This document shows positions 33,300 through 51,676 of a stretch of 64,000 nucleotides of DNA, piece after piece (position 1 is the first letter of the stretch; each line of letters begins with the position of its first letter). The notes under the pieces were generated by a model. That model worked only from the letters and a program-made list of their open reading frames with translations. It did no database searches and was not told the DNA's origin. The position numbers and the translations under genes were made by a program. This stretch comes from Fodinibius salipaludis (GTDB taxonomy: Bacteria > Bacteroidota > Rhodothermia > Balneolales > Balneolaceae). The stretch lies in assembly GCF_002287075.1 (NCBI RefSeq), contig NZ_NSKE01000010.1, positions 62,001 through 126,000 of the forward strand, given 5' to 3'.

Positions 33300-34006
33300 A
33301 CAGCTTATCCCTCATTCACGAAAAATCGGTCATCTCGAATGTAAGTGAGAGATCCTTGTTTCCAATTATTCAAAAACTCAGTCTCACTTTGCAACTTTGT
33401 TACTTTGTCACTCTGACCCTCTGCAACTCAAAAACCTCCTCACCTAATTACTTCTTTACCATTCACTTCCGTCTGACATTAGCCATATCTAAACAAACCA
33501 GGCACAGCCTTGCAGAAATGCCTCCAAATTACGATCTCCCCCCCTGCTACGAGAGAGTTGCACTCTCGAGTAATCGGGAGTACAACTCCCTCTAAACTAA
33601 ATATAAAACACTAATACGATACAACGCAGAGCTCCTACTACGTTAAAACTCCGTAGAACAAGCATTGTAACGAAATTGGGGCTCCCCGTTCACCGCCGTC
33701 CTCAGTCACTTAGTTACTTTGCCACTTCCTCTCCTAATTACCCATTCATCCTTCACAAGTCTATAGTTAATCATTCCTACGCGAACCTAATGGCAGGAGA
33801 TCCCTCGGCTCCGCTCCCCGATGGGTCGGGACACCGCAGGATGACATTGCTTTTAATTGAACATTCAACCTTTAACTTCCGCCATTAAACACCGTCCACG
33901 GTCAACCATCATCCGTCCTCAATCATCACTTAAAACTTTCCACTTTACAACTCTGTAACTCAATCACCCCATCACTTTATCACCTAATCACTGAATTAAC
34001 AAACAC
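33300..34006. repeat. Intergenic repeat block 1
   Basis: This 707-bp stretch has no supportable gene. It contains octamer arrays (from about 33389: AACTTTGT, TACTTTGT, CACTCTGA and further units), a palindromic module GAGAGAGTTGCACTCTC near 33547, one copy of the REP-like element (33777-33858), then heptamers (TTCAACC/CCGTCCA/CAATCAT types, about 33860-33930) passing into octamers up to the HAD gene. Short open frames here are translations of repeats. Confidence 0.85.
33777..33858 (+). repeat. REP-like dispersed element, copy 1
   Basis: The element begins CTACGCGAACCTAATGGCAG, continues AGATCCCTCGGCTCCGCTC and ends GGATGACATTGCTTTTAATT. It shares these blocks with copies at 38590, 39491 and 43140. 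It has an internal segment around GGGTCGGGACAC that the 38590 copy lacks. Confidence 0.85.
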
Positions 34007-34765
34007 TCACCCTGCCGCCGCAAGCTTTTTCCGGTTTTCACGGATAACCTGCCGGTAGGCTTCTAATACAGCTTCGGTCACCTTACTGTCGAGTACCTCT
34101 GCTTCCCTCTTTACTGCTTCTGCAGCATTCTGCGGTGCAAAGGCTTTTCCTACCAATTGCAATCCCGGAATATCGCCGCTGCTGTCCCCAATATATGCTA
34201 CTTCACGTGGATCAATATCCATAATATCGCAGAGCTGCTGAATTCCGGTCCGTTTATTATTTTCGGCCAGGATAATATTGATGGAAACATCCGTATTATG
34301 AACTTCAAATTTGGGATAATGTTCTTCCACGTACTCAGCTACCTGCGGATAAAGCTCCTGAATAACCTCCGTATCAAGATGTATAATACCCGCATCCATC
34401 TTCTTGGTAAATTCAATAATAATACCCTTGTACTGCGGTACTATTTCCTTGCGCAGCCATTCCTTTAATTCTCGAACCTGCTGCTCTGCTTCTTTATCAA
34501 AGGCGGGATGCAGTTGAATTTCATTGGTCTCAAGTTTATACACGCCCGCACTTTCAAATACTACATGACGATCAATACCCAGCCATTGTGCCACCGCTTC
34601 TACATATGGAAACGGACGTCCCGAGCAAATTGAAAGCGAAGGAACGGCCATATCATGCAGACTCTGCTCATTTAATCGACGAATCTGTGAAAGCAGCTCC
34701 CAGTCCGGCGATTCAAAAGGTACAGAAATACATCCGTCGAGATCGGTAATAAAGAGTTTTATCAT
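34007..34765 (-). CDS. HAD-superfamily phosphatase, Cof/type IIB-like
   Basis: The 252-residue protein has motif I FITDLDGCIS (Asp8 and Asp10), the motif II serine in LSICSGRPFPY and the C-terminal motif YIGDSSGDIPGL. The inserted cap between motifs II and III is alpha/beta, as in type IIB sugar-phosphate phosphatases. It hydrolyses a phosphate monoester; the substrate is unknown. The stop codon lies next to repeat block 1, and an octamer array starts 10 nt upstream of its start codon. Confidence 0.88.
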   Translation of the reverse strand: MIKLFITDLDGCISVPFESPDWELLSQIRRLNEQSLHDMAVPSLSICSGRPFPYVEAVAQWLGIDRHVVFESAGVYKLETNEIQLHPAFDKEAEQQVRELKEWLRKEIVPQYKGIIIEFTKKMDAGIIHLDTEVIQELYPQVAEYVEEHYPKFEVHNTDVSINIILAENNKRTGIQQLCDIMDIDPREVAYIGDSSGDIPGLQLVGKAFAPQNAAEAVKREAEVLDSKVTEAVLEAYRQVIRENRKKLAAAG

Positions 34766-34774
34766 TTTGGGGTT

Positions 34775-34814
34775 AAGTGATTAAGATATTAAGAAACTAT
34801 GTGATTAGGTTAAT
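34775..34814 (+). repeat. Octamer array, left arm beside the four-helix-bundle gene
   Basis: Five consecutive octamers read AAGTGATT, AAGATATT, AAGAAACT, ATGTGATT, AGGTTAAT. This is the reverse orientation of the usual CACTTAAT units. The last unit contains the TAA stop of the four-helix-bundle gene. Confidence 0.8.
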
Positions 34815-35163
34815 TATTAGTTGTAAGATAATTTTGCAAGCCATTTAATTGGCTTGATACCTTACCTGTTAGATCTAACAGACTCGAAATGTTATGAATA
34901 TAGTTTTGGCGTTTTAAAATAATTAATTGGGTCTCCAACTCACTTAATGATCCCTTTGCAATATTTACAAAGTTTGCAAACTCTGCTTTACTCTTGCGAG
35001 CCGCCCCTTCAGCCAAATTACTTGGTACCGATATAGCGGCTCGTCGCATTTGTGAAGTTAACCCAAATTTTTCCTCGGTCGGGAAACCTTTACTGATTTT
35101 GTAGATTTCATCCACCAGATCCATTGCATTCTTCCATGCTTCCAAATTATAATGTGGTCTCAT
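34810..35163 (-). CDS. Four-helix-bundle protein (23S rRNA intervening-sequence protein family)
   Basis: The 117-residue protein has the family pattern: an N-terminal region with HYNLEAWKNAMDLVDEIYKI, GLTSQMRRAAISVPSNLAEG and SELETQLIILKRQNY. Relatives were first seen inside intervening sequences of 23S rRNA genes but also occur alone; the biochemical role is unclear. There is no rRNA gene here. The gene lies between inverted octamer arrays (34775-34814 and 35197-35220), as if it were cargo of a small element. Confidence 0.92.
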   Translation of the reverse strand: MRPHYNLEAWKNAMDLVDEIYKISKGFPTEEKFGLTSQMRRAAISVPSNLAEGAARKSKAEFANFVNIAKGSLSELETQLIILKRQNYIHNISSLLDLTGKVSSQLNGLQNYLTTNN

Positions 35164-35196
35164 AATCTCTCTTGATTTAATTTTGTATTCCTACCT

Positions 35197-35220
35197 CACC
35201 TATTTACTTCATCACCTAAT
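35197..35220 (+). repeat. Octamer array, right arm beside the four-helix-bundle gene
   Basis: CACCTATT, TACTTCAT and CACCTAAT are three in-phase octamers in the usual orientation, inverted relative to the arm at 34775. They lead into heptamer text (CCGTCAT type) and a short dispersed module ending near 35303 (GCCCTGCGGACATGCC). Confidence 0.75.
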
Positions 35221-35318
35221 CACCCCTTCACCACTCACCGCCGTCATCCGACATTAGTCATATCCAAACAACCCGGGCCCAGCCCTGCGGACATGCCTCC
35301 AAATTTAACATTTAACAT

Positions 35319-36392
35319 TCAACCTTCAACACTTCCAACTTTGTTTCTGTGTTCCTTTGTTACTTTGCGACTCTCATAAATCTTAAACTCCGGAAACACC
35401 ATCCCAATAAACAAAAACAACAGCCCCACTCCAGCCAGCCACTGGTATTGATTTTTAAAATCAGCATACTCCTGACTGGAAAATTCCCCCTGCTGCAGCT
35501 CATCCAGCCTTCCCAGAAAGCTGTCAATTCCCAAACTGCCACTACGGATTTCATAGTATTCACCGTTAGCCCCATCCGCAATTGAACGCAAGACACTCGA
35601 CTGTAAGGTACTGGTGATAACCTCTCCTTGTTGATTCCGCTTGTACCCCATTAGGGATCCATCTTCATCATATAACGGAATGGTTCCCCCTTCCTTCGTC
35701 CCGATCCCCAACGTATAGACAGATATATTTTGCTCCAGCAGTTGGTTAAGCTCCTCATCATAACTTTCCCCGTGATTTTCTCCGTCAGATATAATCAGTA
35801 AAACTTTAGCCGCCTGCACATTTTGACTATCCTCATCCGTTGACTTAAATGCTTCGGAAGCCGTCTCCATAGCAGCGCTAAAATTCGTTGATGATGACGG
35901 CATCTGATCAGTCTCAGCTATATTCAAAAACATCCGCAAAGCAGAATAATCCAATGTCATGGGAGCCTGGAGATATGCTTCTCCGGTGAAGACCACCAAC
36001 CCAACGCGATCACCGTTGAGCCGGTCGACCAGTCGCGAGACCTCATACTTGGCCTTTTCCAACCGGCTGGGTTTTACATCCTCTGTATTCATGCTGTCCG
36101 AAAGATCCAGCCCAATCAAAAGATCAACGCCCTGGCGTTTCACTTCGCGGACTTCCGTCCCAATTTTCGGTCCCGCGGCGGCAATAGTAAGCAGGGCAAG
36201 TCCAATATAAAGGCTGCCCATGCGAATGCGCTTACCCCTCGGCCAAAAGCCGCTGCGTAACCTTTCAAAAAGATCAGCCCCGAAATAGCTTTTTCGCTTT
36301 TTGTCTAGCTTCTTATTGTACCACCAGTTTGCTCCAATAAGCAACGGGATGATTAGTAATAGCCACAAAAAAATGCTGTCCTGCCAGATCAT
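35319..36392 (-). CDS. VWA-domain membrane protein, BatA/BatB-like
   Basis: The 357-residue protein has two N-terminal membrane helices (about 5-25 and 55-73), a VWA domain with the MIDAS motif DLSDSMN (about 94-100), the threonine region and ISDGENHG, and one C-terminal helix (about 315-335). This is the layout of Bacteroides aerotolerance (Bat) proteins, which work with MoxR ATPases. The last about 15 residues (KVTKEHRNKVGSVEG) are encoded by octamer repeat text, so the natural C-terminus has probably been extended by the repeat. Its upstream region carries a head-to-head octamer palindrome. Confidence 0.9.
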   Translation of the reverse strand: MIWQDSIFLWLLLIIPLLIGANWWYNKKLDKKRKSYFGADLFERLRSGFWPRGKRIRMGSLYIGLALLTIAAAGPKIGTEVREVKRQGVDLLIGLDLSDSMNTEDVKPSRLEKAKYEVSRLVDRLNGDRVGLVVFTGEAYLQAPMTLDYSALRMFLNIAETDQMPSSSTNFSAAMETASEAFKSTDEDSQNVQAAKVLLIISDGENHGESYDEELNQLLEQNISVYTLGIGTKEGGTIPLYDEDGSLMGYKRNQQGEVITSTLQSSVLRSIADGANGEYYEIRSGSLGIDSFLGRLDELQQGEFSSQEYADFKNQYQWLAGVGLLFLFIGMVFPEFKIYESRKVTKEHRNKVGSVEG

Positions 36393-36840
36393 AAATAGCT
36401 GTTTGGGTTCCGATATGGATAAATCAGAATGAGGATAATTAACTGATGAAAATAAACCAAATTGTGTTTTCTCTAAAGTTATTAGGTGACTAAGAAATTA
36501 AGTGATTAAGTATATAGCTTTTCACCTAATTACCCCATCACCATTCATCACAGTCGTCCGTCACCCATCATCACTTAACACTATATAACTCTGTGCCTTT
36601 GTCACTTAGTTACTTTGTCACTGCATCACCTAATCACTTGCCAAACACACCCCGAGCAGCCACTTCGTGGCAGCCCACCCCTCTCAAGAGGGGAATCACT
36701 CAATACCCAACTTCACGGTTTTCAACATTTAACTTTCAACATTAAACCTTCAACACTCAACACCGTCCGCAGTCATCCGTCCCCCGTCATCACTTTCGAC
36801 TTTACAACTCTGTCACTTAATTACTTCGTCACTGCATCAC
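36393..36840. repeat. Intergenic repeat block 2
   Basis: The block contains a head-to-head octamer pair (36484-36515 against 36523-36546), further octamers near 36590-36640, a module around GCCACTTCGTGGCAGCCC (about 36659), ten consecutive heptamers at 36721-36790 (TTCAACA types, then CCGTCCG, CAGTCAT, CCGTCCC, CCGTCAT), and octamers from 36806 that run through the stop codon of the glycerate kinase gene. No gene is supported. Confidence 0.87.
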
Positions 36841-38166
36841 CTATCTACACAAAATCATCACCACATCCATTAAATTATTCCCGGTCGGTCCTGTTTTTAA
36901 AAGCGTATCCATTTGCTCATGAAAGTGGTGGGAATCATTATCAGACAGATAGGACTGCGGATCTATATTCTTCGCTCTTGCCTTGGCAATAGTGGTCCCA
37001 TCTACGATAGCACCGGCCGCATCGGTGGGGCCATCAATACCATCCGTGCCGGCACTCAGCCAGGTAATATTTTCGTATCCCGCTATTTTTAACGCTCCCC
37101 TCAGAGCCAACTCCTGATTTCGTCCCCCCTTCCCATCGCCCGTCACCTGCACCGTACTTTCGCCCCAAAAAATAAATAAAGCAGGTTCTGCTCTTTGTGG
37201 GTTATCCTGATCGGCAGCCGGTAAAATTTTGTCCACAACGGAACGGGCCACTTCCTCAACATCTTCATTAAACGGCTCATCGGCTACCGTCACTTTCCAT
37301 CCTTTTTGCGATGCAAGATCTGCTATTTTATCAGCCAGCTTAGATGCCGAGCTGATAATTTCTGATTGATGCTTCTTAATGGGAGCTTCCTCAGGCGTTA
37401 CCGTTTCCACCACCTCTCCCCTGATTCCCTTCTCGATATGCGTACGGACTGATTCCGGCGCTGCTTCCCATAGATCATATTCCAACAACACATGATAAGC
37501 ATCTTGGAACGAGGACCAATCTGGAATCGTAGGTCCGCTGCCAACTATGGATAACTCATCATCCGGCACATCAGAAATTACAAGATCGATAAGCGTAATG
37601 TTTGGATCCAGGTAACGGAGCAGCTGTCCGCCTTTAACCTTAGAGCAGTGTTTTCGAACGGTATTGATATCGTGAATAGTAGCTCCTGAATTGTTGAGCA
37701 ACTTGTATAATCCAGCCAAATCATCAACAGAAACTCCTTCGGCCGGGAAACTTAACAGGGATGAAGTACCACCGGAAATCAGGGTTATGGTAATAGCATG
37801 AGACGGAATACTTTCCATGAAATCTACGGCACTATTCCCCGCTTCCAAACTTTGTTCATCGGGCAGCGGATGACTCCCGGCGATTACTTCATCAGCCTCA
37901 CACAATCCGGCCGCTTCTTGATCACTTGTTATCACCAAACTTTTTGTGATATGATCTCCCAATATCTCGCTGGCTTGCTCATACATGGGAACGGCCGCCT
38001 TACCAACGGCAAAAAGATAGACCGGCCGATTACCTATAGAATACTGCTTATCCCCTACTTTGATCTCGTTGCCATTAATTTCGAGGACTTCTCGTATGGC
38101 GCGATGCGGAGAGCATTGTTCAAGCCCTTCCAGGAAAAGGTTTTTTAACAGCATTCTGCTACTCAC
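36841..38166 (-). CDS. Glycerate 2-kinase (GckA/TtuD, DUF4147-MOFRL family)
   Basis: The 441-residue protein has the N-terminal DUF4147 domain (FAVGKAAVPMYEQA, LISGGTSSLLSFP, VRKHCSKVKGGQLLR) and the C-terminal MOFRL domain (FIFWGESTVQVTGDGKGGRN, WLSAGTDGIDGPTDAAGA). It phosphorylates D-glycerate to 2-phosphoglycerate, feeding lower glycolysis. The TAG stop lies inside an octamer unit of the adjoining array (36838-36845). No glyoxylate-pathway genes are adjacent. Confidence 0.93.
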   Translation of the reverse strand: MSSRMLLKNLFLEGLEQCSPHRAIREVLEINGNEIKVGDKQYSIGNRPVYLFAVGKAAVPMYEQASEILGDHITKSLVITSDQEAAGLCEADEVIAGSHPLPDEQSLEAGNSAVDFMESIPSHAITITLISGGTSSLLSFPAEGVSVDDLAGLYKLLNNSGATIHDINTVRKHCSKVKGGQLLRYLDPNITLIDLVISDVPDDELSIVGSGPTIPDWSSFQDAYHVLLEYDLWEAAPESVRTHIEKGIRGEVVETVTPEEAPIKKHQSEIISSASKLADKIADLASQKGWKVTVADEPFNEDVEEVARSVVDKILPAADQDNPQRAEPALFIFWGESTVQVTGDGKGGRNQELALRGALKIAGYENITWLSAGTDGIDGPTDAAGAIVDGTTIAKARAKNIDPQSYLSDNDSHHFHEQMDTLLKTGPTGNNLMDVVMILCR

Positions 38167-38762
38167 AGTTGATATATTTAAATCCTCGATACATAAATAG
38201 TGACCAGTAATCTAACGATCTTGATGAAAATCCTAAATTAGTTCTTCTTCTTTTAAACAATTCTCCCCTTCTAACCTCAACTATTATGTTCAATAACATA
38301 CCAGCCATAAGGGAAACTATTTATTGGCAAAAATGACATTTTCTTAAGAATTCTGAGTCATAACCTTCGATACTATGTCACTCAATCATCTAATCACCAA
38401 TCCACAGTCCACCGTCGTCTGTCGTCACAAACCAGGCACAGCCCTGCGGACATGCTTCCAACTTCAACATTCACCACTTAATATTTACCATTCAACAGTT
38501 TTGAGGGAGTTGCACTCCCAAAAAGCGCTCCCTTCTTGTGGAGAGGAATTTAGGGTGGGTCATAAAAGAAAAAAATAGCATCTTAGATGCTACGCGAACC
38601 TAATGGCAGGAGATCCCTCGGCTCCGCTCGGGATGACATTGCTTTTAATTAAACCTTCAACCTGTAACATTTAACATTCAACACTCACCACTCAACATTC
38701 AAAACCATCTACAGTCGTCCGTCCCCGGTCCAACCCTGTAACTTTGTATCTCTGTCACTCAA
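38167..38762. repeat. Intergenic repeat block 3
   Basis: The first 180 bp are AT-rich and probably hold the glycerate kinase promoter. From about 38365 there are octamers, CCGTCGT-type heptamers, a module with CAGGCACAGCCCTGCGGACA (38433), a palindromic module GAGGGAGTTGCACTCCC (about 38505), the REP-like element copy 2 (38590-38650), and heptamers then octamers reaching the exosortase-like stop codon. No gene is supported. Confidence 0.85.
38590..38650 (+). repeat. REP-like dispersed element, copy 2 (short form)
   Basis: It has the same ends as the copies at 33777, 39491 and 43140 (CTACGCGAACCTAATGGCAG; GGATGACATTGCTTTTAATT) but lacks the internal segment of about 20 nt containing GGGTCGGGACAC. 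Upstream it is preceded by a small palindrome AGCATCTTAGATGCT. Confidence 0.85.
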
Positions 38763-39266
38763 TCACCGCCTATCATCCCCGACATTCACCCAAACTATAC
38801 AGAGCACAGAAATAACGCCATAAAAAACGGCTGTAGTAGAAAAATCACCCGTTACGGCAAACACTTGAGAAGACTCCGCCTGGGTTAGAGTAAAAATAAA
38901 GACGCGAATGATATTCACAAGATAGATGACGCCAATACCAATAAAGATAAAAGCAATGCGCGGAATCCATGCCCCACGATAGGCCATCACAAAGCCTACC
39001 AACAGTCCAACAGCAGAGATCCCGCTACCTCCATCCCCCAAATAAATACCGGGTAATTCCCCAATACCCATTAATCGACCAGTGGCATAAACATCGTAGT
39101 TCATCATTTCTAACAGCCCGGCCGAGACTGATACTATATTTGTAGCAACCCATTGGTCGAGACTACCATCCGGAAGCAGCCAAAGGGCATAAATAAGATA
39201 CCAGAGCAGATATATCCCGGCTACTTTAAGTGCAAATATTCCTGCCTCCGATTTAAACCATTGCAT
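38763..39266 (-). CDS. Exosortase/archaeosortase-like membrane protein, catalytic residues apparently missing
   Basis: The 167-residue protein has about four to five membrane helices and the general exosortase layout. At the position of the catalytic Cys motif it reads GGSGISAVG (G79-G80), where active enzymes have a Cys-Ser/Asn-Gly. The conserved Asn-x-x-Arg is present (NIIRV, R121). The third catalytic region (about 139-150, TGDFSTTAVFYG) has no histidine. Exosortases cut sorting tags such as PEP-CTERM and lie near exopolysaccharide genes, as here (Wza gene next). No PEP-CTERM protein is seen in the window. Its last residues (DDRR) come from repeat text. Confidence 0.7.
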   Translation of the reverse strand: MQWFKSEAGIFALKVAGIYLLWYLIYALWLLPDGSLDQWVATNIVSVSAGLLEMMNYDVYATGRLMGIGELPGIYLGDGGSGISAVGLLVGFVMAYRGAWIPRIAFIFIGIGVIYLVNIIRVFIFTLTQAESSQVFAVTGDFSTTAVFYGVISVLCIVWVNVGDDRR

Positions 39267-39490
39267 ATAAGCCGTCCCAGTTAGTCTTAATTTGAAAGCA
39301 ATATATAAGATTCGATATAACCTTCGAAATAGATTTATCCGTTCACTTACTCTTCATCGTAGAATAAAGGTTATTATCCAAACCAGCCGTCCTCGGCCCC
39401 CCATCATCAGAACAAGACAAAACCTGCAGACCTGCCGCCAAATTCAACATTCAACACCGTCATCCGTCACAAGTCCATAGTCAATCATTC

Positions 39491-39573
39491 CTACGCGAAC
39501 CTAACGGCAGGAGATCCCTCGACTTCGCTCCCCGAATGGGTCGGGACACAGCGGGATGACATTGCATTTAATT
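39491..39573 (+). repeat. REP-like dispersed element, copy 3
   Basis: The sequence matches the other copies from CTACGCGAACCTAACGGCAG to GGATGACATTGCATTTAATT and includes the internal GGGTCGGGACACAGC segment. Confidence 0.85.
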
Positions 39574-39634
39574 AAACCTTCAACCTGAAACTTTCAACCC
39601 GCCCTCGGTCATCACTTAATACTTAACACTTTAC

Positions 39635-39730
39635 AACTCTGTGCCTTTGTCACTTTGTATCTCTGTCACTCTACACCTTTGTTACTCAGTTACTTTCTCA
39701 CTTAATCACTGCATTACCTAATCACCCAAT
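39635..39730 (+). repeat. Uninterrupted 12-unit octamer array
   Basis: Exactly 12 x 8 nt: AACTCTGT, GCCTTTGT, CACTTTGT, ATCTCTGT, CACTCTAC, ACCTTTGT, TACTCAGT, TACTTTCT, CACTTAAT, CACTGCAT, TACCTAAT, CACCCAAT. Column 3 is C in all 12 units, column 4 is T or C in all, and column 8 is T in 11 of 12. The other columns vary, so units differ from one another while the phase is kept. Confidence 0.88.
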
Positions 39731-39974
39731 AACCATCATCCGTCTTCAGTCCACCGTCGCTTGTCTTTACAAAAACACAGATTTCTCGGCTTCGCAATGA
39801 AAACCACATTGCTCCACTCGAAATGACACATTACAAGCATCCAGTCTTACTTTGCAACTTTGTCTCTTTGTCACTCAAAAACTTACTCATCTCTTCCCAA
39901 AACAGACATTATTTTTTCGATGCATTTCTTTATATTGATCCCCTTTTAATTCAATCAAGAAACAAGAACACAGT

Positions 39975-42518: not shown

Positions 42519-43534
42519 CAAAAAGTAATTTAATAACAAATCCATTGGTATAAAGTCCCCCTTCGAAGGGGGATGAATTCGGCCCCAGCCGAAGAAAGGG
42601 GGATGTAAAGCGCTTCCCAAAATGATCTTCAGTTTTGAGGGAGTTGTACTCCCGAAAACACTCCCTGCGATGTTGTTCGAGGGTACATCCCTCTCATAAC
42701 TTTAATCACCCATCCTGTCATCTCGACTAAAATCCCGAGCAATCGGGATGGAGCAGAGAGATCCTTGTTTTTGATACATACTAAAGGATAAAAACAAAGA
42801 TTTCTCCACTCCGGCTTGAAACCCACAGCCTCCGGTCGAAATGACACCTTTATAAACAACTGGTCTTACTCTGCAACTTTGTTACTTTGTATCTCTGTAA
42901 CACAATTACCCAAACACTGCATTCCCTAAGCCCCTATTTACCACTCCACCGTCGTCGGTCACCGGTCATTCAAATTTATGTCACCAGTATTAATCAATCC
43001 CCCTAACCCCCTTCTCCAAGGGGGAACTTAACAGGGCCAACTTTATAACTCTGTAACTTTGCAACTTAATCACTCAATCACCTAATAGCCCTTCACCATT
43101 CACCTCCGTCGTCCGTCACCGGTCCATAGTCAATCATCTCTACGCGAACCTAATGGCAGGAGATCCCTCGACTTCGCTCCCGACGGGTCGGGACACAGCG
43201 GGATGACATTGCTTTTAATTAAACCTTCAACCTGAAACCTTCAACATTGAACGCTTAACATGAAATCTTAAACCACACCCCGAGCCGCCACTTCGTAGCA
43301 GCCCACCCCTCTCGAGAGGGGATTTTACGGTGCCAACTTCACAATTTAAAATCCATCATCCAACATTAAATCCCTGCAACTCCGTCTCTTTGCAACTTTG
43401 TCACTTTGTTTCTTAGTAACTTAGTAACCTAATCACCTAATAACTATTATACCTCTTCCTGCAGGGAAAAGAGAAACTCGTGATTAAAGAGACGCATCCA
43501 ATTCAACCTTCAACATTCAACACTCAAAAGCCTT
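42519..43534. repeat. Intergenic repeat block 5 (longest)
   Basis: About 1 kb without a supported gene. It holds a perfect 18-bp palindrome TCCCCCTTCGAAGGGGGA (42556-42573), a module GAGGGAGTTGTACTCCC (about 42635), TCCCGAGCAATCGGGA (about 42734), octamers (about 42868-42930), CCGTCGT heptamers (about 42948), a second C/G-run palindrome (about 43010), octamers (about 43040-43090), the REP-like element copy 4 (43140-43220), a module around GCCACTTCGTAGCAGCCC (about 43278) and octamers (about 43378-43450). Confidence 0.87.
43140..43220 (+). repeat. REP-like dispersed element, copy 4
   Basis: It runs from CTACGCGAACCTAATGGCAG to GGATGACATTGCTTTTAATT with the internal GGGTCGGGACACAGC segment, and is nearly identical to copy 3. 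It is preceded by CATAGTCAATCAT, also found before copies 1 and 3. Confidence 0.85.
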
Positions 43535-44971
43535 CTACTTTATACTATAACGAAAACGAACCATCCCACCCAGCTGGTCCGCATACAGCGCCCCGGTATC
43601 ATAGGCTAAGTCGAGGCTCAGCGACAGCTTCGGGCGGACAGGCATAGACATCTGCAGTAAAAAAGAGTATTGGTCTTTGCGATTCGTAACCCCATTAGAC
43701 CGGCTCGAACAGCTTTCAGTAGCACAGTATGACCTTGCCCCATAATTTCTACTATACGTACCCGTTAAGCCATAATTAATCGACCCAATGACTCCACCCA
43801 ACCCCAATTGATGAGCAATTACAATATTATTATCAACTCCTGGGTGAATGCCATCAGCAAACATTAAAGGATTCCCAATAGTACGGCCATGGGAGGTCCA
43901 ACCACTCCTGTATGTACTATTGCTATAATAACTGTCTGCTCCATAAGGAGGATCCCCACGATGCACCTGGGAACTCTGACGCTTGGTATATAAGTGATTC
44001 CAGGAAAAACTATTTATGTACTCAAATTCTTTATCCCAGGAAATGGATACCCCCCAGAGCCCATCCCATGCATTGCGGAATTTGGCCCCGGCCCCCGTTT
44101 CCAAGAAAAATTGGCGGTGGATGACTCCGCTATAACCCCGATAATCATACGCAATTCCAAAATCATAAATACCAATGGAACTGCCCACAGCCTCTCCGAT
44201 TGCCGAAGGTTCCGCATTTTCCGCATCACTTTCCTGAGCGGTAAACACATTCCAAAAGTCACTCAATCCATCCGGTAAGTTACCGTACTCCGGGTGCGTC
44301 CCCGCCCAGAGTGTACTTTGAACAATTCCACCATAAAGTTGCAGAGGATAGGTATCAGGAAGTGCCTTTAAATAGAAATATTTCTGGTGCAACCACGGGT
44401 CTTCAATATATCTTCCATTTTCCATCCAGCCGTGAGCAAAATAGCCCTTAAAACTCAGCCAGCTGTCCGTACCCGGGATGCCCACAAAATCAGGCGTATA
44501 AAGACGTACCTTGGGAATGGGCGATGCATTTCTGCTTTGTATCATGGAGCCGGACGTTAGGCTGCTGTCAGTAATCCCTATTTGCTCTTTTTGGCGTCCT
44601 GCAACAAACCGAAATATTTTCCAATCGACCTGCAGGTATCCTGCATTAAAGAATACACTGCTTTGTTCTGACCATCGACCTACCAGCTCGGCCCCTGCTT
44701 TCAACTTCACTGGTCCAGCGGTCCCAAGATCAGCCCGGGGAGCCAGCCTCATAAAACCATTGGCGCTTCTGCGATCGATCATACCCCACCGGTTGCTGTG
44801 CAACCAAAAGGGCAACTCCCCTTCTTGGCTGATGGCCGTTCCAAATTCCATCTCCATATCAAAGTCAGGAACAGCTTCCTCTTCCTGATTCTGTCCCAAC
44901 GCAAGAGACTGCAACCCTATTAAAAAAGTAATTCCAACAACTCCGAAACGCAGTATTCTTGATAAACTCAC
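43535..44971 (-). CDS. Wzi-like capsule assembly outer-membrane protein
   Basis: The 478-residue protein has a signal peptide (about 1-26, LQSLALGQ). Alternating amphipathic strands with many Trp and Tyr residues follow and end in an aromatic-poor strand MVRFRYSIK, consistent with an outer-membrane beta barrel. Segments such as SWLSFKGYFAHGWMENGRYI and DPWLHQKYFYLKAL match the capsule-assembly Wzi family, which anchors polysaccharide to the cell surface. It lies near the Wza gene in the opposite direction and has octamer arrays on both sides. Confidence 0.88.
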   Translation of the reverse strand: MSLSRILRFGVVGITFLIGLQSLALGQNQEEEAVPDFDMEMEFGTAISQEGELPFWLHSNRWGMIDRRSANGFMRLAPRADLGTAGPVKLKAGAELVGRWSEQSSVFFNAGYLQVDWKIFRFVAGRQKEQIGITDSSLTSGSMIQSRNASPIPKVRLYTPDFVGIPGTDSWLSFKGYFAHGWMENGRYIEDPWLHQKYFYLKALPDTYPLQLYGGIVQSTLWAGTHPEYGNLPDGLSDFWNVFTAQESDAENAEPSAIGEAVGSSIGIYDFGIAYDYRGYSGVIHRQFFLETGAGAKFRNAWDGLWGVSISWDKEFEYINSFSWNHLYTKRQSSQVHRGDPPYGADSYYSNSTYRSGWTSHGRTIGNPLMFADGIHPGVDNNIVIAHQLGLGGVIGSINYGLTGTYSRNYGARSYCATESCSSRSNGVTNRKDQYSFLLQMSMPVRPKLSLSLDLAYDTGALYADQLGGMVRFRYSIK

Positions 44972-45756
44972 TAATCAAAATTTTGACCATTAAAATTGAT
45001 CGGGAATATAGCGATTTCGACAGGCAGTGCCCAAATTTGTGGAATAGTTTTTAAGGGATTAGGTAATGAGGTTGAAAAGTGACAGAGTAATTTATTTCCC
45101 GTTGTTTTGCACAACAGAATTTTTGCAAGTGAACATAGGTTTTGAGATATCTCGGTCAACCGTCCGTTTTGCCCCTTTATTACTCTGTAACTTTGTTTCT
45201 TTGTCACTCAGTAACTTAGTCGCCTATCACCGCTCTCGCCCCATCCCTCACCACTACGCCATATAAACCATGGCTTTGTAGCACAAGCTTGATCTCCCTT
45301 CCCTACAAGCAGGGAAAGGAGAAACTCCTTATTAGAGTTTCGTAGTTGAACCAAACATTAAACATCCAACTTTTCCATGGTCAACAGTCATCACTTCACA
45401 CTTAAAACTTAACCCTTTATAACTCTGTGCCTTTGTCACTTAGTCACTCAATCACCTAATTATCCCTTCACCATTCACCACAGTCGTCCGTCACCCGTCA
45501 TCACTTAACACTTAAAACTTTCCACTTTACAACTCTGTAACTTTGTATCTCTGTCACTCAAAAACTTCCTCACCTCATCACTCAATCACTTATTCACAGA
45601 CAAGTCACTTAAATATATTCGGAAACAAATACTGACGGACTCAAAACCTTCATATTCTCAACACTATCCACAGTCATTCGTCAACAGTCTTTTCTAAACA
45701 CTTAGCAACTCCATCACTTTAAGTTCCTTTTGCAACAAGTTATAAGAAGAAACCCC
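44972..45756. repeat. Intergenic repeat block 6
   Basis: The block has inverted octamer arms at 45061-45092 and 45181-45228 separated by 88 bp, a module CAGGGAAAGGAGAAACTCC (about 45310) shared with 43454 and 47402, seven heptamers at 45481-45529 that pass, after one extra base, into eight octamers at 45531-45594, and further heptamer text up to about 45700. No gene is supported; the wzi promoter should lie in 44972-45060. Confidence 0.87.
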
Positions 45757-46068
45757 CTACTTTTTACGAACAATCTTCGCTCCTCGATCAATATCTCCCT
45801 TAATATCCTCAACATGATGAAGATGAAAAACATTAGCCAAAAACAGTATAGCCAGTGTACCCATAAAGGCGAATAACAAAACACCACTAATTTCGACATA
45901 TAATCCACATATGCCAACAACCGGTGCTCCGATCAATCCCCAGACCACATTGCTCCTCACCGTTATGCCTTCATCTCCAATAATATATCCAATGACCCAT
46001 CCTTCTGTTGCCCCCAACACCAAAAGCCAAAATATCGTCGTTGCCGTTAATGTTTCCATATTGATCAT
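45757..46068 (-). CDS. Small membrane protein, possibly GlsB/YeaQ-like
   Basis: The 103-residue protein has three hydrophobic segments (about 9-32, 40-58, 62-82) with Gly-rich turns (GATEGWVIGYIIGDEG) and a charged C-terminal tail. Size and Gly-rich helices recall transglycosylase-associated (GlsB/YeaQ/YmgE) stress proteins, but the match is weak. The start could be codon 1 or codon 4 (METLTATT, 46059). Its stop region abuts repeat block 6. Confidence 0.6.
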   Translation of the reverse strand: MINMETLTATTIFWLLVLGATEGWVIGYIIGDEGITVRSNVVWGLIGAPVVGICGLYVEISGVLLFAFMGTLAILFLANVFHLHHVEDIKGDIDRGAKIVRKK

Positions 46069-46448
46069 AGTTTGTTTGCTGTATATAGCAAATTTATCAA
46101 CCTTATCACTACCTTGCTGTAGTACAATCCCTATTTCGCTTATACCTTCAAGAACACTTCACACAACCTTTCATAGATTGTCTGTGCATCCCTTTGCAAC
46201 TTTTTAAGAACACAGCAATGCCATCCTGAGCATATCAAAACCGATTTCACCTTTTGCAAACCTTCTAACAAATTATTCTCAGTTCAAATCTCCCTTACAA
46301 CATCAATCAAGTTTCCCCTACAAAACACCCACCCTACAAACTCTGTGTTCAGTGATTGAAAAATTCCTATCGTATCAAGTAAATTCACTAAAAACGATCT
46401 ATAACCGGAATTACATTTCCTTTTTCATAATCATATCTCAAATACATT
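46069..46448. other. Intergenic region upstream of the DUF892 gene
   Basis: This 380-bp AT-rich stretch lies between divergent genes and should hold promoters for both. It shows only scattered C-rich words resembling degraded repeats; no array, gene or terminator was found. Confidence 0.45.
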
Positions 46449-47006
46449 ATGGCAACTCAAAATAAACAGGATATTTTTGACCTCTACGATTTGATGCTAG
46501 AACAACTGCGTGATCTCTTTTACGGGGAATTGCAACAGATAACTTTTCTGGAAAGACAGTCAGAAATAGCAGAATCTTTTGAACTCAATGAACTTCTGAC
46601 TTTTCATCTCAGGGAAACCAAGCACCATGCTCAACGAATTAAAGAAGTCTTTCAAATACTCAATGAAGATCCCAAAGGTGAAAATTGCGACGGTATTAAA
46701 GGACTCATCAAAGAATCACAAAAATTGGTAACGCGATGTGTGAATGAGGAAGTACGTGACGCTGCTCTTATAACGGCGATTCAACACATCAATCATTATG
46801 AGATGGCAGGCTATGGAACTGCTATTGCCTATGCTAAAACTCTCGAACGACATGAAATTGCTGAACTACTGCTGGATACCTTGCGTGAGGAAAAACGCGC
46901 TGATATGGGGCTAAGTGATCTGGCAAACAATCAAATTAATCCCGATGGCAAATGGTCAGCTATTGTGAATAAAGTACTTGTCCCGACCCCGACCAAAGAC
47001 AAGTAA
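46449..47006 (+). CDS. Ferritin-like DUF892 (YciE/YciF) family protein
   Basis: The 185-residue all-helical protein has the DUF892 pattern: DLYDLMLEQLRDLFYGELQQ near the N-terminus, HLRETKHHAQRI with E-x-x-x-H-H, ITAIQHINHYEMAGYGTAIA and LLDTLREEKRADMGLSDLA. These supply carboxylate and histidine ligands of a ferritin-like di-metal site. Family members are stress-induced; the enzymatic role is not established. A small ORF follows by 30 nt. Confidence 0.92.
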   Translation: MATQNKQDIFDLYDLMLEQLRDLFYGELQQITFLERQSEIAESFELNELLTFHLRETKHHAQRIKEVFQILNEDPKGENCDGIKGLIKESQKLVTRCVNEEVRDAALITAIQHINHYEMAGYGTAIAYAKTLERHEIAELLLDTLREEKRADMGLSDLANNQINPDGKWSAIVNKVLVPTPTKDK

Positions 47007-47036
47007 CTTATATTAAAGCTATATTTTTTTTTGATT

Positions 47037-47282
47037 ATGAAACATTCATTAACGCGGAACTTAAAAATAAAAATCAACTCAAGATCTCTTTCACCTGCTG
47101 ACATTAATAGTTTGGAACAGTGGGAAAATGAGGGTGGGATGACCAACTCCCAAGTTATGTTCTTAGCATCTTTAAGTCCTCTAAGAAAGGGAGAAATATT
47201 TGAAGTTACAGGTGGTGATATCCATTTTGAAAATGGTCAACTTTATTATGAGGCCGAAATTAATATTCTCGCACTCCCGTAG
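47037..47282 (+). CDS. Small protein of unknown function downstream of the DUF892 gene
   Basis: The protein has about 81 residues from ATG 47037 (MKHSLTRNLKIKINSRSLSP). It is soluble, of mixed alpha/beta character, with no recognised domain. Its position 30 nt after the DUF892 gene on the same strand suggests co-transcription. Composition looks protein-like and the stop lies just before repeat block 7. A TTG two codons upstream is an alternative start. Confidence 0.6.
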   Translation: MKHSLTRNLKIKINSRSLSPADINSLEQWENEGGMTNSQVMFLASLSPLRKGEIFEVTGGDIHFENGQLYYEAEINILALP

Positions 47283-47844
47283 GCAGTTCTCATATTGGTA
47301 CCAACATCACCCCAAACATAGATTTCTCACTTCCTTCGGAATGACCTCGATTGGTGCATGGAAGTATTGAAAACTGGCGTCATCTCGTCTGTAATCTACA
47401 GGCAGGGAAAAGAGAAACTCCTTGTTAGAATTTCGTAGTTGAACCAAGCATTCAACATTTCCAACTCTGCAACTTTGCTTCTTTGTCACTTTGTAGCTTA
47501 GTAACTGAATCACCTAATCACCCCATTACCTTCCCCCGTCTCCGGTCAACTGTCACCCGTCATTGCAAAACACAGATTTCTCTCTCCACTATGTTCCGTT
47601 CGAAATGACAGTTTAGAATTTTATCCAACCTCCAAATTCAACCTTCAACACTTCCCAACTCTGTAACTTTGTCTCTTTGTCACTCAAAAACTCCCTCACC
47701 TCATTACCTCCTCACCATTCACCACCGTCCACAGTCATCCGTCCCCCCGTCAGCAGCTCCGCTGCCTCCAACAAAAAAGGCCTCCCCTCTCGGAAAGACC
47801 TTGAAAGTCTAAATACTCAAATCTCACTACTCAATACTAAAAAA
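47283..47844. repeat. Intergenic repeat block 7
   Basis: It contains modules with ATTTCTCACTTCCTTCGGA (about 47321) and CAGGGAAAAGAGAAACTCC (about 47402), octamers (about 47463-47528), heptamers (about 47536-47563), another module around AAATGACAG (about 47600), heptamers and octamers (about 47636-47720), CCGTCCA heptamers (about 47724-47750), and a hairpin-like stretch GGCCTCCCCTCTCGGAAAG (about 47787) before the wecA-type gene. No gene is supported. Confidence 0.83.
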
Positions 47845-49086
47845 TCACACCGCTACACTCTCAGATTCTTCCTCATACGCTTCTTTCCCATTTGTCACAA
47901 GCTCTAAAGAATCATCACTGATACCTCCATTTAAGGACTCCAGCTTTTCGGGATTAAATTCGATCCCCCACTTTCTCTTTTGGTAAGCCTGCCAATCATA
48001 GCCAAACAACCAAGACGTTAGTTTTCTTTTAAACCCATTAGTAGGGAACACTACGAGACTTGTCAGTATTACCGTGCCTAATAATATATTTACATTGATA
48101 TTAAGAAGTGCCAAAGATCCAATAATTGCTACCAACAACAAACTTTGACCATAGAGCAGCAGTGAAGCATGACTATGTGAAAGCCCCATTCGCAGTAGCT
48201 CGTGATGGACATGATCCTGACCCGGTTGAAATATAGAATTACTCCGACGCATTCGTTTAACCACTACACGCAACGTGTCAAAGAGTGGAAATCCTAATAT
48301 CGCTACCGGTAGAATGGCCGATGCATTACCAAAAACAGAAGCAAATAACGGATCACCGCTTAATGCCACAAACTCTATGGTTTGCACCGCCAGTAAAAAT
48401 CCCAATAGCATAGACCCCGTATCTCCCATAAATATGGAAGCAGGACTAAAGTTATAATACAGAAATCCTAACAGCGCACCAACCAGGCAAAACGAAAACA
48501 TCGCCATGGGCAGTTGTCCCACATAAAGAAAACCGGCACCAAATATTACGGAGGCAATGACTCCAATTCCTCCTGCCAACCCATCAATACCATCAATCAA
48601 ATTGATCGCATTAATAAGAACGATCACCGTAAAAAATGTTATCGGCACCGCCACCCAGAAAGGAATTTCGGCCAGCCCAAAAACGCCGTAGAAATTATCA
48701 ATGACCATATCGCTCCCAAAGATAATCAATCCTGCAGCCGTTAATTGTGCCACAAGCTTCTTGGAAGCAGACAGGACCACCAAGTCATCTTTCAGACCTA
48801 CAAAGAATAGAATAAGGACAGCAGCAGCCAAGTACGAATAGCCTCCCAGGCTATTGGCCCACGGGCTTACGGAAAAACTGACTAAAAAAGCTGCACATAT
48901 AGCAATGCCACCCAAGGTTGGTACCGCCTCGGAGTGTAATTTGCGATGATCATCCGGATGGTCAAACAAATGCTGCTTTTCGGCCACCCTCTTAATTATT
49001 GGTATAGCAAAATAGGAGATCACACAGGAAAGAATAAAGATAACACCTAATGTCATCCCGCCATCTGGCAGTAACGTTTGTTCCAT
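47845..49086 (-). CDS. Polyprenyl-phosphate sugar-1-phosphate transferase (WecA/MraY superfamily)
   Basis: The 413-residue protein has about 11 membrane helices and the superfamily residues: GLKDDLVVLS (Asp-Asp), NAINLIDGIDGLAGG, FMGDTGSMLLGF and DHVHHELLRMG (His-x-His-His), the pattern of the WecA branch. It would start glycan assembly by moving GlcNAc-1-phosphate or a similar unit to undecaprenyl phosphate. The C-terminal about 70 residues are cytoplasmic and longer than in E. coli WecA. It lies at the head of the polysaccharide locus with the Wza and Wzi genes. Confidence 0.93.
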   Translation of the reverse strand: MEQTLLPDGGMTLGVIFILSCVISYFAIPIIKRVAEKQHLFDHPDDHRKLHSEAVPTLGGIAICAAFLVSFSVSPWANSLGGYSYLAAAVLILFFVGLKDDLVVLSASKKLVAQLTAAGLIIFGSDMVIDNFYGVFGLAEIPFWVAVPITFFTVIVLINAINLIDGIDGLAGGIGVIASVIFGAGFLYVGQLPMAMFSFCLVGALLGFLYYNFSPASIFMGDTGSMLLGFLLAVQTIEFVALSGDPLFASVFGNASAILPVAILGFPLFDTLRVVVKRMRRSNSIFQPGQDHVHHELLRMGLSHSHASLLLYGQSLLLVAIIGSLALLNINVNILLGTVILTSLVVFPTNGFKRKLTSWLFGYDWQAYQKRKWGIEFNPEKLESLNGGISDDSLELVTNGKEAYEEESESVAV

Positions 49087-49575
49087 ATACTATTTTTTTA
49101 AATGTGAAACGTCTCTACTTGTTAAATTTGAATGTAATAATAACACTTTTGAAGCTGTAATACAATTTCATGTTAGAATTCTTTAATAAAAAGCAAGCAT
49201 TAATCATAACCATTTAAACAGTATTATAGCTGAATGTTCCGAACTTAGAAAAGAAATAGAGGAAACTGCAAGAGCTTTTGGGTATATAGCGCATGATAGA
49301 TTCCTCCACACTACAACTTTGTCACTTTATTTCTCAGTTACTCCATCCCCCTGGAATACCACCATTATGACCCTCGGAAGATCAGAGGATTCTACAATAC
49401 AGTAACTTAACCACCTAATAACCCAATAACCAATTTAATGGTCATCCGACGTTAGTCATCGGTCCTCCATCCACCGTCAGCTTTGCAACTCTGTCCCTAT
49501 GTTACTCTGTAACTTAGTTACTTTGTCACTTAATCACCGCCCTTCCCGTCATCCGTCGGCACACAGTGCCACAAA
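49087..49575. repeat. Intergenic repeat block 8
   Basis: The first about 220 bp are AT-rich and probably contain the wecA-type promoter. From about 49310 there are octamers (ACAACTTTGTCACTTTATTT and following), a few heptamers around 49440-49480 and more octamers at about 49485-49540 reaching the nucleotide-sugar dehydrogenase stop region. No gene is supported. Confidence 0.75.
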
Positions 49576-50952
49576 CTACGCCTTCCAAAAATGAATATCA
49601 TTATCCGGCTCAATACCTTTCAATGCATTTCTGCTGTCAATAATACAATCCGACCATTCAGCAAGCTCCTCATAATCTATCACAGAGTGATCGGTAGAAA
49701 TAACCACCGCATCATACCCTGACACTACCTCTTTATTCCAGGATATACTTTTGGTCCCGGTCCATTCGTCATGTTCCCGGGTAGGCTTAATCTCTGGAAT
49801 ATGCGGATCATAGTAAGACACTTCAGCCCCGTATTCTTTGAGCAGATCCATAATCTTAAAGGTCGGTGATTCGCGCATATCATCTACGTCCGGCTTATAG
49901 GCCAGCCCGATAACAAGAATATCACTACCATTCATCGGCTTTTTATGCGCATTGAGTGCTTTTAAGGTCTGATCAATCACATACTGGGGCATGGATGTAT
50001 TAATTTCACCGGCCAGCTCGATAAATCGCGTGTTCTGCTCATATTCCCGCGCTTTCCAGGTCAGATAGAAAGGATCAATGGGAATACAATGGCCGCCCAA
50101 ACCCGGGCCGGGAACAAATTTCATAAAGCCAAAAGGTTTGGTATCAGCGGCGTCCAGCACTTCATGGACATCAATATCCATGTCACTGAATACCACCTTC
50201 AGCTCATTCACCAAGGCAATATTTACCGCCCGAAACACATTTTCCGTAATCTTCACCGCCTCGGCTGTTTTGGTGTCAGACACGGGTACCGTCCGGACAA
50301 TGGAGGTATCATACAAGGCACAAGCCAGTTCGATACCTTCCTTGGCATGCCCGCCAACCACTTTGGGAATACTGCCGGTATCAAAATTGATATTACCCGG
50401 ATCTTCGCGCTCGGGGCTGTAGGCTACGTAAAAATCTTCTCCTGCCGTAAGACCTGACTTCGATTCCAAAATAGGAATAACCAACTCTTCGGTAGTACCG
50501 GGATAGGTGGTGGACTCCAAAATCACCAATTGTCCCTCACGGAGATGTTCTCCTACTGTCATGCACGTTTTTTCTACATACTGCATATCGGGCTCGCGGT
50601 GATAATCCAGCGGAGTAGGCACACAAAGCAGCAGGGCATCGGCTTCCGAAATGCGGCTGAAATCCGTGGTCGCATCGCACTTTTTACTATCGGCAAGCTT
50701 CTGCATCATCTCTTTGCCCAAGTGCTTGATGTACGGCCGTCCCTCTTTCAGACAATTAATCTTTTCTTTGTCGATATCGAATCCCAGCACCGGCATATCA
50801 TTGCTGTGGAAGGTCCACATCAAGGGCAACCCCACATAGCCGAGCCCAACTATACCTACCGTATAATTTCTTTGTTTGATCTTGTCAAGTAGCTTCTGCA
50901 GGCGATCTGTCTTTTTTTCTTCTTGAATGATATTTGCTGAATCGGTACTCAT
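49576..50952 (-). CDS. UDP-N-acetyl-hexosamine 6-dehydrogenase (nucleotide-sugar dehydrogenase)
   Basis: The 458-residue protein has the NAD-binding GIVGLGYVGLP (about 34-44), the middle dimerisation domain, the catalytic Cys in GPGLGGHCIPIDPFYLTW and the C-terminal UDP-binding domain (VIGLAYKPDVDDMRESP). The IPIDPFYL motif points to the WbpA/WecC group that makes UDP-HexNAc uronates. It supplies an acidic sugar for the polymer. The WecB epimerase is encoded next upstream, so UDP-ManNAcA is the likely product, although UDP-GlcNAcA cannot be excluded. Confidence 0.93.
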   Translation of the reverse strand: MSTDSANIIQEEKKTDRLQKLLDKIKQRNYTVGIVGLGYVGLPLMWTFHSNDMPVLGFDIDKEKINCLKEGRPYIKHLGKEMMQKLADSKKCDATTDFSRISEADALLLCVPTPLDYHREPDMQYVEKTCMTVGEHLREGQLVILESTTYPGTTEELVIPILESKSGLTAGEDFYVAYSPEREDPGNINFDTGSIPKVVGGHAKEGIELACALYDTSIVRTVPVSDTKTAEAVKITENVFRAVNIALVNELKVVFSDMDIDVHEVLDAADTKPFGFMKFVPGPGLGGHCIPIDPFYLTWKAREYEQNTRFIELAGEINTSMPQYVIDQTLKALNAHKKPMNGSDILVIGLAYKPDVDDMRESPTFKIMDLLKEYGAEVSYYDPHIPEIKPTREHDEWTGTKSISWNKEVVSGYDAVVISTDHSVIDYEELAEWSDCIIDSRNALKGIEPDNDIHFWKA

Positions 50953-51676
50953 TTATAATTGCTTTATTAAATTTGATGCTGAAGATAGGCAAGTTTAGAG
51001 AAAGTGTACATCAAAGATCAAAAAATATTTTTTCTGCTTTTTGTGGGATTGTCCAGTTTTTGCAATCAATAATAGAAGTACATCTTTTCTCTTGACATAA
51101 CCATGTATATTCATTTTTTGTGACTAAAGGTTTGTGGCGTTCATTTTGGCTTGATCCAAAATGAACCAAAAAATCAAGACTTAGAATTGTGAAACCTACT
51201 CCGGCCTGCAGGATTCATGTATTTTAATGGTCCTTCAAAGGAATTAACTATTTCATTGTTACTGACCGGTATAAAATACATACCCGCATCCCTTGTCTTC
51301 CGCTCACAATTCTTAGGCCTGTCCCCCCGCCATAATGTAATTGCTGGTGGGAAACCGAGGGCGTAGAGGATAATTTCGTACTGGTTCTTTACGTAGAAGT
51401 AAGCAATTTAATGTAACAGACCATTGAAATTATCCAGCCTGAGGTTTGGAACGTTTTCGCAATTCTAAGGCGGTCACTTTTTTAGTTCTTTTTTCGTGAC
51501 TGAAAAAATGAACTGCACAACTGTATCATGAAAAAGTTACATCACCACCTATATTGACAAAAAAAATAATCAACAATTATTTAAAAATGGATAGATACTG
51601 AAACAAGTTCAGGATGACATGATCGTTACAACTTTGCAACTCTGTCCCTGTGTTACTCTGTTACTTAGTCACTCAA
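50953..51676. other. Noncoding region with a structured element between wecB and the dehydrogenase gene
   Basis: This 724-bp region has no supportable gene. Its middle (51139-51514) is a structured element with palindromic ends, listed separately. The last 60 bp (about 51630-51676) are octamers that run into the wecB stop codon. The dehydrogenase promoter should be in the AT-rich part between 50953 and 51130. Confidence 0.6.
51139..51514. repeat. MITE-like or structured noncoding element with palindromic ends
   Basis: The left end is a perfect hairpin GTTCATTTTGG-cttgat-CCAAAATGAAC (51139-51166). The right end is AGTTC-TTTTTTC-gtgact-GAAAAAA-t-GAACT (51484-51514). The ends resemble each other in inverted orientation (TTCATTTT and GAACyAAAAAA blocks). 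Inside are further inverted segments: CTTAGAATTGTGA (about 51180) with TCACAATTCTTAG (about 51307), and TGTATTTTA with TAAAATACA. No open frame is present. It could be a non-autonomous element or a folded RNA. Confidence 0.6.

Follow-up and report, generated by a model that had tools for sequence, protein, structure and literature searches.

Tandem heptamers in intergenic DNA have long been known as a class, which includes the short tandemly repeated repetitive (STRR) sequences of cyanobacteria and the TAACTGA and GGGAATC repeats. A survey of 7006 genomes found them to be the most abundant intergenic tandem repeats, with 'no clear clue' to their function (PMC6344855). The S23/IVP protein family, known from the intervening sequences (IVSs) of 23S rRNA genes, is in a similar position: structures have been solved, the family is common and has 'no known function', and the Xanthomonas S23p is a toroidal homopentamer (PMC4990558). 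Here, we analyze a stretch of 64,000 nucleotides (the window; contig C2, positions 62001-126000) from the draft genome of Fodinibius salipaludis (G000; 3.58 Mb, 39 contigs), in which an interval populated by capsule and polysaccharide export genes, 33300-51676, is rich in degenerate tandem arrays of 7- and 8-nt units. The interval also holds an IVP gene at 34810-35163, bounded by inverted arms of the same words, which a preliminary description of the arrays had overlooked. We consider it probable, at about 0.7, that the arrays are the terminal arms, and solitary arm relics, of small (~0.45 kb) S23/IVP elements. The observations that carry this reading are the anatomy of the elements with its statistics, the agreement of word and unit length with the protein tree, an orthologous site at which elements come and go, and arms that stand without a gene.

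The genome encodes 12 proteins of the PF05635/TIGR02436 family. At 11 of the 12 genes, the reverse-complemented upstream flank matches the gene's own downstream flank, and mixed pairs of flanks match far less, with the exception of two close paralogs that both have the word TTCAACC. The arm word differs for nearly every paralog, and the paralogs share 28-47% identity with the first one and hence are not recent duplicates. Own-flank scores are 26-53 for ten paralogs besides the window gene. The window gene itself has a score of 21, which exceeds the mean of mixed pairs (16.7) but falls inside their range; it is counted as an element because of a 28-bp inverted octamer match, its clade mates (L109 and L114) and the comparison of its locus, which lies between genes for a VWA protein and a HAD hydrolase. 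Its parts, with arrays located by position weight matrix (PWM), are the following.

34810-35163, minus strand: S23/IVP four-helix-bundle gene, 117 aa, coding core of the element (PF05635, TIGR02436, AlphaFold2 model)
34772-34811, minus strand: downstream arm, 5 octamers (CCTAATCAC type as read along the gene strand), forming an inverted pair with the upstream arm (PWM)
35197-35228, plus strand: upstream arm, octamers of TCACCTAA type, opposite in orientation to the downstream arm (flank match, PWM)

Reading the C2 and C39 stretches showed small genes between arrays, with oppositely oriented arrays on both sides. The window gene is flanked by octamers of the form CACCTAATCAC; the IVP genes at C2:139 kb and C39:3.8 kb lie between TTCAACC/TTCAACA heptamers, and the one at C39:6.4 kb between CCGTCAT heptamers. 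Octamers of the form ACTTTGTC flank clade-11 IVP genes of other genomes, including the genus mates G006 and G035. The word classes of the interval (TTCAACA, CCGTCAT, ACTYTGTN and CACCTAAT) correspond to arms of IVP genes in the same genome or genus.

The same anatomy recurs across the family and far beyond it. In a survey of 58 family genomes, 47 of which contain PF05635, the mean inverted-flank score of 114 IVP loci was 28.3 against a maximum of 19.6 in 5000 permutations, and 73 of the 114 loci reached the 95th percentile of mixed pairs. A wider search, with a single clade-11 IVP protein as query, added 80 relatives from Flavobacterium, Alphaproteobacteria, Planctomycetes, Acidobacteria, Cyanobacteria, the candidate phyla radiation and others (33.3 versus a permuted maximum of 21.6), for a total of 194 loci and 387 flanks. 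Mixed pairs score high among the Flavobacterium loci because many of these are interrelated, and the permutation test separates even so. Tandem arrays were found in 166 of the 387 IVP flanks but in only 5 of 384 control stretches 280-420 bp away; nearly all of the 166 have a period of 7 (83 flanks) or 8 (74 flanks), with a median of 4.65 units and a span of 36 nt. Where the inverted match is strong, the arms start at a median of 6 bp past the stop codon and 51 bp ahead of the start. IVP genes with clear inverted heptamer arms also occur on plasmids of Nostoc edaphicum, Nostoc C052, Calothrix brevissima and Riemerella, with the words TCCCTAC, TTCCCTG, CTACACC and CCTTGAA; some other plasmid IVP genes examined have no arrays. 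No relative turned up among viral contigs when the window protein served as query. At a Pseudanabaena plasmid IVP gene, AAAAGCY arrays run in the same direction and are not inverted. On the Pseudanabaena galeata plasmid (L307), an IVP gene with AAAAGCY arrays lies between cas6 and cas4, and reported links of IVP genes to CRISPR (clustered regularly interspaced short palindromic repeats) operons may be passenger insertions.

An octamer array at L297 (G026:C14) lies apparently in an open frame, translatable as ELQSD..VPEVQSGE-like repeats. The AGCTGAT arrays of L280, L282 and L303 (G029) are embedded in a more extensive dispersed repeat, whose common lead-in ends in CAGGGCT, and a solitary AGCTATC array at L288 (G028:C63) lies in the loop formed by an inverted repeat of 13 bp, TTTAGTTTTGATT / AATCAAAACTAAA.

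The upstream and downstream arms of one gene pair better with each other than with swapped partners (mean -40.9 versus -30.5 kcal/mol), as would be expected if the arms were only RNA stems, with the transcripts of IVP genes forming hairpins for RNase III to trim, as for the rRNA IVSs, whose borders are complementary and cut by RNase III (PMC4990558). The words would then be a by-product of pairability. However, a stem requires neither tandem 7- or 8-mers nor a unit length specific to a clade, and the solitary one-way arrays can form no stem at all, and we regard this explanation as unlikely.

The reading of the arrays as parts of IVP elements draws further on the relation between arms and protein. 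In cross-genus, non-syntenic pairs, flank similarity rises with protein identity from ~20 (<50%) to 35.8 (>=70%), whereas a wrong-strand control stays flat at 18-20. Individual words follow individual clades, as seen for ACTTTGT (10/11 loci in the clade versus 0/103 outside), TTCTGAA (13/19 versus 1/95), TTTCACT (9/12 versus 1/102), ATAGCTG (8/11 versus 0/103) and TCAATAC (14/28 versus 2/86), counts that describe the coupling rather than test it since the words were chosen on the same data. Unit length behaves likewise: on a tree of 117 IVP proteins labeled by unit length, 7 or 8, only 8 changes are needed, compared with a mean of 38.5 and a minimum of 29 for shuffled labels. Clade-11 7-mers taken only from flanks in other genera match the interval 135 times on the plus and 13 times on the minus strand, against 13 and 6 matches outside it, and the words of five other IVP clades vary between 0.5- and 2-fold. 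Triples of ACTYTGT are present in 13 of the 58 genomes, with one control match across all 58. Of the ten genomes that possess a clade-11 gene, counting one pseudogene, eight contain such arrays, as do 5 of the 48 that lack the gene (P=2.5e-5). The corresponding association for AGCTGAT is weaker (7 of 11 genomes with a clade-10 IVP gene versus 8 of 47 without, P=0.004), and both P values are optimistic because congeneric genomes are not independent and some matches are the arms themselves. As the arms travel with the gene, common descent by itself accounts for part of this coupling; the retention of word and period by degenerate arms across wide protein divergence nevertheless argues, we infer, for constraint.

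Gain and loss could be followed at the VWA-HAD locus, compared in 12 species. The site is empty, 49-78 bp long and devoid of arrays in G048, G025, G060 and G058, where the upstream arm at 35197-35228 has no counterpart; divergence among these empty sites is too great for them to be compared base by base. An intact element occupies 413-520 bp in G057 and G052 (clade 8) and in G035 and G006 (clade 11), whereas in G042 arms accompany a broken clade-11 gene and in G061 arms occur without any gene. These states indicate that gene and arms are gained and lost together and that arms can outlive the gene. A gene-less inverted layout is also found twice in the window, at 36473-36512 with the arrays to its right and at 45050-45097 with 45173-45220.

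Replication slippage alone, giving rise to simple repeats with IVP genes merely within or beside them, predicts neither that a single gene family should be bounded by inverted arms, nor empty sites lacking gene and arrays together, nor a word and unit length that follow the protein tree. Degenerate, phase-locked units are moreover unlike the products of fresh slippage. Perfect AGCTGAT and ACTCTGTA runs in some genomes do look recently expanded, and heptamers are more common than any other intergenic tandem repeat in prokaryotes (PMC6344855). Slippage may still drive array growth; the coupling counts strongly against it as a full account, which we consider quite improbable.

The arrays of the interval were examined for period, unit, order and strand. 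Autocorrelation of its pooled intergenic DNA, compared with dinucleotide-preserving shuffles, gave z=7.4 at lag 7, 10.2 at lag 8, 6.5 at lag 14 and 8.5 at lag 16, far above shuffled sequence, whereas window intergenic DNA outside the interval gave no period-7/8 signal (-1.0 at lag 7 and 1.8 at lag 8). Reading out the units confirmed 12 octamers at 39635-39730 and eight at 45531-45594, each with C in column 3 of every unit, and ten heptamers at 36721-36790. The seven heptamers proposed at 45481-45529 proved to be three CCGTCAT-type units followed by four transitional, CACTTAA-like ones. Arrays do occur in most intergenic regions, as had been claimed, although 46069-46448 has none and 50953-51676 only its final stretch. 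A PWM scan, trained on the window's own units and therefore descriptive only, placed 24 octamer, 16 TTCAACA and 18 CCGTCAT arrays on the plus strand and three arrays, all octamer, on the minus strand of the interval. Besides those of the element, the features are as follows.

33385-33456, plus strand: octamers, 9 units (PWM)
33857-33996, plus strand: composite of TTCAACA, CCGTCAT and octamers (PWM)
35297-35331, plus strand: TTCAACA-type heptamers, which overlap the VWA gene at its 3' end (PWM)
36473-36512, minus strand: inverted octamers, resembling with the plus-strand arrays to the right an IVP element without its gene (PWM)
36579-36642, plus strand: octamers, 8 units (PWM)
36721-36790, plus strand: TTCAACA (6) then CCGTCAT (4) heptamers, with octamers next at 36798-36845 (read-out, PWM)
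38649-38771, plus strand: composite of TTCAACA, CCGTCAT and octamers (PWM)
39572-39760, plus strand: composite of TTCAACA, octamers (13 units, 39627-39730) and CCGTCAT (read-out, PWM)
42867-43133, plus strand: two arrays, each octamer then CCGTCAT (PWM)
43219-43529, plus strand: TTCAACA arrays around a 12-unit octamer array at 43362-43457 (PWM)
45050-45097, minus strand: inverted octamers, forming with 45173-45220 (plus) a second gene-less inverted pair (PWM, sequence)
45173-45594, plus strand: octamers at 45173-45220, 45413-45460 and 45523-45594, heptamers between (read-out, PWM)
47463-47745, plus strand: composite of octamers and CCGTCAT (PWM)
49307-49559, plus strand: octamer and CCGTCAT arrays (PWM)
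51630-51693, plus strand: octamers, 8 units, running into the end of an epimerase gene (PWM)

The order TTCAACA, CCGTCAT, octamer, proposed as usual in the preliminary description, does occur but is one among several. The step from octamer to CCGTCAT is enriched (10 observed versus 4.8 expected, P=0.003), that from TTCAACA to CCGTCAT is not (4 versus 2.6, P=0.23), and the step from octamer to TTCAACA is avoided (1 versus 3.4). Composite segments of the region share 73-93% DNA identity. Solitary arrays, in the window and elsewhere, run one way and have about 6-11 units; some of the arrays are perfect, others degenerate. Genome-wide, as judged from sampled stretches and pattern searches, the octamer triple is confined to this interval and C37:18 kb, and TTCAACA arrays recur at C2:139 kb and the start of C39, with single hits on C34, C1 and C3. 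The C2 end (L012) and the C39 start (L015 1-250) have IS3-type transposase sequence in common, and the array-rich region thus probably runs on from C2 into C39.

The character of the arrays as composite, degenerate and phase-locked was borne out, and CRISPR was rejected, as the 7-8-nt degenerate units stand head to tail with no spacers. A simple microsatellite was rejected on unit length, degeneracy and word, and identity with the TAACTGA repeat because the window words differ. The statement that no named family fits holds insofar as none in the literature searched covers these arrays as such, though they belong to the familiar class of intergenic heptamer arrays. Other repeats lie nearby: a hairpin-like dispersed element, CTACGCGAACCTAATGGCAGGAGATCCCTCGGCTCCGCTC...GGGATGACATTGC, recurs beside arrays at 33780-33850, 38588-38640, 39490-39560 and 43140-43210, as do the palindromes CCCCTCTCGAGAGGGG and GAGGGAGTTGCACTCCC. 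GACGGAC-type heptamers, the reverse of CCGTCAT, lie at 56152-56182 within the reading frame of a heparinase-like gene (54684-56351), adding a Ser/Pro/Arg-rich stretch to its protein.

The intergenic position of the arrays would suit upstream binding sites for an S1-, Csp- or Csr-like regulator, with the IVP protein uninvolved, and a regulatory role has been proposed for TAACTGA (PMC4679880), in a paper that does not mention S23. Yet convergent, divergent and co-directional gaps are occupied alike, on one strand, and the words change with the IVP clade present, which makes this a very unlikely explanation.

The protein encoded at 34810-35163 matches PF05635 with 128.5 bits and TIGR02436 with 123.9 bits, and no known catalytic domain is found in the IVP protein. 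Its AlphaFold2 model (mean pLDDT 94.3) resembles XCC0516 (2GSC) with a TM score of 0.93 and Avd chains of diversity-generating retroelements (DGRs) with 0.73-0.79; the match to the Avd sequence model is weak (22.6 bits versus a cut-off of 80). The notion that a DGR- or retron-like reverse transcriptase (RT) system writes the arrays, with IVP as an Avd-like helper, could draw on this fold, the weak score and the two RT genes of the genome (C37:209 kb and C12:377 kb), but neither lies on C2 or within 25 kb of the IVP genes found. A template and variable repeat pair was not observed, though no search aimed at one was made, and the notion is highly improbable.

A complete element consists of reverse-complement words (~4-5 units), then ~50 bp of leader, then the IVP gene and finally the same words forward, beginning ~6 bp past the stop codon, and each clade of the protein has its own word and its own unit length of 7 or 8. 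By relation, the IVP protein would form a homopentameric ring like DGR Avd, and a five-membered ring facing arms of 4-5 fixed-length units suggests recognition of perhaps one unit per subunit. The pentameric protein probably binds the arrays unit by unit, which would keep phase and fixed columns while other positions drift, and the element itself would be mobile. Slippage and local duplication, the simplest account of how solitary and composite arrays grow, could have expanded relics into the composites of the polysaccharide locus.

A number of observations weigh against this model. No array is detectable at 74 of the 194 IVP loci, and at L039, one of the 12 paralogs, the flanks run in the same direction. 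ACTYTGT arrays abound in G000, yet a clade-11 IVP gene was not found there, its clade-8 gene sitting where its relatives G006 and G035 have clade-11; similarly, AGCTGAT arrays occur in several genomes in which no clade-10 IVP gene was found. The bias of 58 of 61 arrays to the plus strand, regardless of gene direction, is not predicted by the loss of single arms. No direct transposition event was seen in the loci compared, and two identical IVP loci in G034 were rejected as a recent transposition since the entire 2.4 kb is identical, indicating contig-end redundancy.

The literature searched, with preprints and most subscription journals outside it, holds no report linking S23/IVP to repeats, and priority is not established. 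The link joins the questions of prokaryotic heptamer repeats and S23/IVP function and gives each of them a first tangible lead. Should words and proteins be partners, the word would predict the protein's ligand and the protein the repeat class of a genome. IVP genes inside other operons, such as that between cas6 and cas4, should then not be read as parts of those systems. More tentatively, S23/IVP proteins may be array-reading rings throughout bacteria, each clade reading its own 7- or 8-nt word with one unit per subunit and maintaining or spreading arrays through recognition, in which case prokaryotic intergenic heptamers and octamers might largely be the footprint of one family of selfish elements with a word code of its own.

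Compared with known systems, the inverted arms of the IVP elements recall the terminal inverted repeats of transposons and miniature inverted-repeat transposable elements. DGR Avd has the four-helix fold, and pentameric rings occur in both families, but the window protein falls far below the Avd cut-off and has no RT neighbor. The STRR heptamers of heterocystous cyanobacteria are, like the TTCAACA and CCGTCAT classes, degenerate, tandem and intergenic; the window differs in its composites and its octamers, the commonest class (24 of 58 plus-strand arrays), and the STRR papers found name no protein partner. The heptamers flanking IVP genes on Nostoc and Calothrix plasmids are STRR-like. TAACTGA repeats are likewise intergenic tandem heptamers, patchy across distant phyla including Bacteroidetes and Cyanobacteria, but consist of one near-invariant word, mostly in 2-6 copies upstream of starts, with no IVP link reported (MacGregor 2015, PMC4679880). 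The GGGAATC repeats of Xanthomonas and Nostoc are degenerate, mostly intergenic heptamers at about 185 per genome that differ in having been studied as G-quadruplexes (PMC4692102), and X. campestris, one of their hosts, also encodes the solved S23 protein XCC0516 (2GSC). The 23S rRNA IVSs of Leptospira and Coxiella share with the window element the S23/IVP gene, complementary borders, a size near 430-450 bp and patchy presence at a conserved site. The window element instead lies between protein genes (VWA and HAD) and belongs to a family with many divergent copies per genome, clade-specific arms of 7- or 8-nt words and solitary arrays elsewhere. This family is closest to the rRNA intervening sequences but fails their defining site.

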